From contig JACPMX010000014.1 in assembly GCA_016185755.1 (NCBI GenBank), positions 53,868 to 117,867 on the forward strand: a DNA stretch of 64,000 nucleotides, given 5' to 3'. Each line of letters begins with the position of its first letter. Positions within the stretch are counted from its first letter, which is position 1. This DNA is from Candidatus Woesearchaeota archaeon. GTDB lineage: Archaea > Nanobdellota > Nanobdellia > Woesearchaeales > GW2011-AR4. Below are positions 61,398-61,510 of this stretch, one piece after another. The notes under the pieces were generated by a model. That model did no database searches, was not told the DNA's origin, and saw nothing but the letters and a program-made list of their open reading frames with translations. The translations under genes and the position numbers were made by a program.

Positions 61398-61510
61398 GGT
61401 GGCAATAGTTTAATGGCAGAATAGGCGGCTGTGGCTGAAAAGCAGAACCCGCCTGGCGGGAGTTCGATTTGAGCGCGTTCATGCGTTTCACGAAATTCTC
61501 CCTTGCCGCC
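61398..61510 (+). tRNA. tRNA-His(GTG) with two predicted introns (61435-61447 and 61469-61496)
   Basis: G-1:C73; acceptor GTGGCAA/TTGCCGC; anticodon arm GGCGG-CTGTGG|13 nt|C-CCGCC; T-arm GGGAG-TTCGAT|28 nt|T-CTCCC. Confidence 0.82.

Follow-up and report, generated by a model that had tools for sequence, protein, structure and literature searches.

Introns at position 59/60 of tRNA genes, and several introns within one gene, are already known in Archaea, chiefly in Crenarchaeota and Nanoarchaeota (PMC4090602); where multiple non-canonical introns are concerned, the tRNAscan-SE 2.0 paper points to Crenarchaeota and Thaumarchaeota. The original prediction had assigned multiple and non-canonical introns mainly to Thermoproteales; 59/60 introns and multiple introns had been described from Nanoarchaeota as well (PMC4090602). 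The bulge-helix-loop is a known relaxed form of the bulge-helix-bulge (BHB) motif (PMC6379350), and reviews associate tRNA introns of the non-canonical and relaxed kinds with splicing endonucleases of the (alpha-beta)2 or epsilon-2 type, which have an extra loop (PMC4090602, PMC6379350, PMC12397907). The M. jannaschii alpha4 enzyme is classed there as narrow in its specificity, and the EndA enzyme of A. fulgidus can excise a bulge-helix-loop at 37/38 when the substrate is full-length pre-tRNA (PMC6379350). In the nanoarchaeon Nst1, introns interrupt only two tRNAs, and a beta gene was not identified (PMC3655853). For woesearchaeal tRNA introns, a literature search covering few subscription journals found no published account.

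The tRNA-His(GTG) gene described here shares features with several of these systems. With Thermoproteales (for example P. islandicum, which has three introns in its tRNA-Pro) it has in common the presence of several BHB introns in one gene, at canonical and non-canonical sites. Like its counterpart in Nanoarchaeum equitans, another DPANN archaeon, it is interrupted at 37/38 and has a relaxed motif there, but the N. equitans tRNA-His is split in trans, whereas the woesearchaeal introns are in cis. ARMAN-2 (Micrarchaeum) is likewise a small archaeon with relaxed BHB introns.

The gene lies in a window (the whole stretch of 64,000 nucleotides that was analysed) from a groundwater woesearchaeote, bearing out the DPANN-like context first suggested; the genome is 1.25 Mb in size and 94% complete. 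It is flanked on one side by the gene for ribosomal protein uS13 (60734-61219, minus strand) and on the other, past an open reading frame of unknown family (61563-62006, plus strand), by MsrB (62008-62397, plus strand). On direct reading, exons 61398-61434 (G-1 to G37), 61448-61468 (C38 to T59) and 61497-61510 (T60 to C73), all on the plus strand, join to a 72-nt tRNA-His(GTG), GGTGGCAATAGTTTAATGGCAGAATAGGCGGCTGTGGCCCGCCTGGCGGGAGTTCGATTCTCCCTTGCCGCC. The acceptor stem is of 8 bp including G-1:C73, the D-stem is GTTT/GAAT with terminal pairs G.T and T.G, the anticodon stem is GGCGG/CCGCC with loop CTGTGGC, and the T-stem is GGGAG/CTCCC with loop TTCGATT. A Box A-like promoter element, CTTTAAAA, can be read directly at 61365-61372 (plus strand), about 33 nt upstream of G-1, and elements of the TTTAAAA/TTTATAA type are present at about the same upstream distance in most copies of the gene in the genus. 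Just downstream, a run of T (61512-61516, plus strand) is a plausible terminator; CTTT follows nearly all genus copies.

Removal of 61435-61447 and 61469-61496 had been proposed to give a regular tRNA-His with G-1:C73. In a search in which BHB-like segments were deleted singly or pairwise and the products scored as tRNA, without the answer being supplied, these same two introns came out as the top-ranked solution. Intron 2 (61469-61496, plus strand, 28 nt), in the T-loop at 59/60, is flanked by a strict BHB motif, the textbook form that had been claimed for it: a central helix of 4 bp between TTCG (61463-61466) and CGAA (61491-61494), with 3-nt bulges ATT (61467-61469) and ATT (61495-61497) and an inner hairpin between them. 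Intron 1 (61435-61447, plus strand, 13 nt), at 37/38, has a helix of CTGT (61429-61432) with GCAG (61442-61445) and a 3' bulge AAC, but on the 5' side the bulge widens into a loop of 9 nt; there is no inner helix, and the motif is the relaxed bulge-helix-loop of a mini-intron, as the original prediction had it. Compared with dinucleotide-shuffled sequences, the unspliced RNA has a somewhat more favourable fold (z -2.3). Introns of 13 and 28 nt, with no Rfam match in the window, have neither the catalytic core nor the length of hundreds of nucleotides of a Group I intron. A 12-nt 37/38 intron with a CTGT/GCAG bulge-helix-loop like that of the tRNA-His is also present in the tRNA-Asn(GTT) gene of the host (L003, G000:C12:184651-184735).

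DNA similarity searches recovered the interrupted gene from 17 of 20 genomes of the genus, and all 17 parsed copies have a spliced length of 72 nt. Mean identity among them is 90% for the spliced tRNA, 63-66% for the flanks and 37-41% for the introns. Changes on both sides of a pair occur in the acceptor, anticodon and T-stems, one T-stem pair being switched from G-C to C-G in seven copies. The copy of G008 has a broken 5' acceptor strand; across the 17 copies, the relaxed conservation and broken stems of a tRNA pseudogene are not the pattern observed. The introns differ greatly in sequence and length (13-114 and 19-131 nt); 15 of the 17 copies contain the 37/38 intron and nine the 59/60 intron. 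None of the long introns at 37/38 in G003, G009 and G013 matched an Rfam family of its own. The helices that define the splice sites are retained, with 33 of 36 pairs kept between TTCG and the 59/60 intron (shuffled mean 16.2; three of nine helices in relatives have one mismatch) and 53 of 60 between CTGT and the 37/38 intron (shuffled mean 26.4). Neither value was reached in 20,000 intron shuffles (p<5e-5 at both sites), although these p-values overstate independence because the copies share ancestry. Exon conservation, compensatory changes and the splice-site helices kept across the genus thus support two BHB-type introns, and the locus is very probably a functional woesearchaeal tRNA-His(GTG) gene, judged on its sequence.

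The original prediction had held that a second, intronless tRNA-His(GTG) elsewhere in the genome, together with a lack of spliced RNA, would point to a pseudogene. The first part of this is present: another contig carries an intronless tRNA-His(GTG) with G-1:C73 (G000:C1:16100-16170), and downstream of it are genes for a SLOG-family protein, a HisG-like protein and histidyl-tRNA synthetase, HisRS (L054:6837-9671, on G000:C1). Two tRNA-His(GTG) genes in a genome of 1.25 Mb are unexpected, and the location of the intronless one may tie it to histidine metabolism or its regulation. Its existence means that the interrupted gene may not be essential for growth. The intronless copy might then do the decoding while the interrupted one drifts as a decaying duplicate, and the related second tRNA-His copies found in several genomes of the genus, two with an intron at 37/38, would agree with this. 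Yet the interrupted gene is the one present in most genomes of the genus, it is the introns that diverge while the exons stay conserved, showing compensatory changes and a constant spliced length, and the splice motifs and Box A are maintained, making decay improbable. That the insertions are instead retained, unspliced, in a non-standard RNA such as a regulatory tRNA-like element is scarcely plausible: both lie in the splice-site registers of BHB-type motifs, several relatives do without them and have the tRNA intact, and many other tRNAs of the class show the same pattern.

In the host genome, at least four more tRNAs have a 59/60 intron when inspected by eye, namely Arg-TCG (L022), Gly-CCC (L023), Pro-TGG (L024) and a Ser-type tRNA (L025), the last of which was also recovered by the intron parser; other host tRNAs have D-loop or anticodon-loop introns. 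This census, drawn from searches and single stretches, is incomplete, because several 59/60 introns were assigned by eye; the parser's solutions for L009, L012, L013, L024 and L027 are low-scoring and unreliable, and it misplaces the introns of L022 and L023. Across the 53 genomes of the order, host included, the strict 59/60 signature has 207 matches against 24 for the reversed control. At least one match occurs in 126 of 234 genomes of the class, some of the single matches being due to chance, as the control indicates. For 21 matches in other genera (20 stretches), removal of the intron gives a clean tRNA in 15, a moderate one in two (L209, L218) and none in four (L210, L211, L213, L223). 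The class thus appears rich in T-loop introns, and the intron is not peculiar to the tRNA-His of the window; this recurrence of 59/60 across the class is a difference from Thermoproteales.

In this lineage introns have come and gone, and have also shifted from one site or gene to another. One intron family, with sequence ACAACCTTTTCTTTT..AAAGAAAAGCTTGACCAAAAG...GGTTG (L257, L250, L144, L147, L138), is common to the 37/38 site of tRNA-His (G003, G009, G013) and the 59/60 site of tRNA-Arg (G013), and its sequences make intron transposition within the genus likely. Signs of such transposition are a further likeness to Thermoproteales, for which a similar process has been described (cited in PMC4090602). 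The shared element also occurs directly 3' of a tRNA with an anticodon that is apparently TTG or TGG (L251, L242), and after it the 3' end of the tRNA is repeated, TGCC(C)GGGGCTA; this arrangement is perhaps that of a mobile element with target duplication.

The host genome contains one intact gene for an alpha-type splicing endonuclease (G000:C9, about 19257-19763), of about 197 residues with single N and C domains, and a gene for the RtcB ligase. The alpha chain aligns best with N. equitans alpha (NEQ205) and M. jannaschii alpha4 (E=2.6e-32), and its nearest relatives are in groundwater Woesearchaeota MAGs. It has a 9-residue gap against the insertion of A. pernix alpha, which was taken as the crenarchaeal loop; no insertion like it was seen among 92 aligned relatives. 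Searches of the host genome with Pfam PF01974 and the alpha profile found no beta partner gene. A second match (L226, G000:C12:2-304) was rejected as beta, since it is a 97.7% identical truncated copy of L225 at a contig end, probably arising from strain variation that breaks the assembly. Likewise, L029 was rejected as an endonuclease, its match to PF01974 being weak (E 0.17). In nearly all genomes of the genus, no second endonuclease gene was found; the exception, G006, has two over the cut-off (G006:C16 and G006:C44; L169, L182). Twelve genomes rich in 59/60 introns, 95-100% complete, each have one endonuclease gene over the cut-off.

Known markers thus give no support for a broad-specificity endonuclease, which had been expected from the relaxed motif: the only enzyme gene found is of the alpha type, with no crenarchaeal loop and no detectable beta partner. 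Thermoproteales, by comparison, are Crenarchaeota whose (alpha-beta)2 enzymes carry the crenarchaeal loop, whereas here a DPANN archaeon has a single alpha gene; in N. equitans, NEQ261 serves as a beta subunit, and the epsilon-2 enzyme of ARMAN-2 is a fused three-unit chain of about 390 residues with an ARMAN-specific loop, against the single N and C domains of the shorter woesearchaeal chain. There is also a likeness to the M. jannaschii alpha4 enzyme, likewise the product of a single alpha gene, with N and C domains and no loop insertion; that enzyme is listed as narrow, while the woesearchaeal one is known here from its sequence. As a variant of splicing by the alpha enzyme, and one that does not exclude a functional gene, a heteromeric (alpha-beta) enzyme of broad specificity might act with a beta chain too divergent to detect. 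Two findings would suit such an enzyme: in structure, the alpha chain is most closely related to NEQ205, its counterpart in the broad-specificity heterotetramer of N. equitans, and the motifs at 37/38 are relaxed. We nevertheless consider it unlikely, as searches with PF01974 or the alpha profile found no second member in the host beyond the strain-variant fragment, nor in nearly all genus genomes (G006 has two) or the 12 genomes rich in T-loop introns, and Nst1 also lacks an identified beta gene (PMC3655853).

For splicing by the alpha enzyme of this genome, we infer the following pathway. The gene would be transcribed from the Box A promoter and the RNA folded, both sites would be cut by the alpha-type endonuclease, and the three exons would be joined by RtcB to the 72-nt tRNA, to which CCA is added. 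As a strict BHB, the 59/60 site should be cut by motif recognition alone; the 37/38 site has no inner helix, and its cutting probably depends on guidance by the tRNA body, as for A. fulgidus EndA. The 59/60 intron is predicted to be removed first, before that at 37/38, because an intron in the T-loop disturbs the elbow between the D-loop and the T-loop. The anatomy fits the behaviour of EndA: the motif is strict at 59/60 and relaxed only at 37/38, a site at which the enzyme can be guided by the tRNA body. M. jannaschii alpha4 being listed as narrow, removal of the 37/38 bulge-helix-loop would rest on a mature-domain mode of recognition known from another enzyme type.

Both the 59/60 site and multiple introns being known in Archaea, the tRNA-His of the window is not in itself a new type of interrupted gene. 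The interest beyond the known site lies in part in T-loop introns throughout a class with an apparently alpha-only enzyme. Neither ARAGORN nor Rfam, at the gathering score of the latter, recovered the interrupted gene, so the tRNA sets of DPANN genomes are likely undercounted. Tentatively, and as a possibility we would not call probable, 59/60 may be a lineage-wide hot spot for mobile introns in Nanoarchaeia (Woesearchaeales and relatives), served by a homomeric alpha-type endonuclease with none of the known specificity-broadening loops, in a fixed order in which 59/60 is followed by 37/38 under the guidance of the restored elbow. A large class apparently rich in T-loop introns, in which genomes show a single alpha gene that has no crenarchaeal loop, makes the rule that links introns to endonuclease type directly testable.
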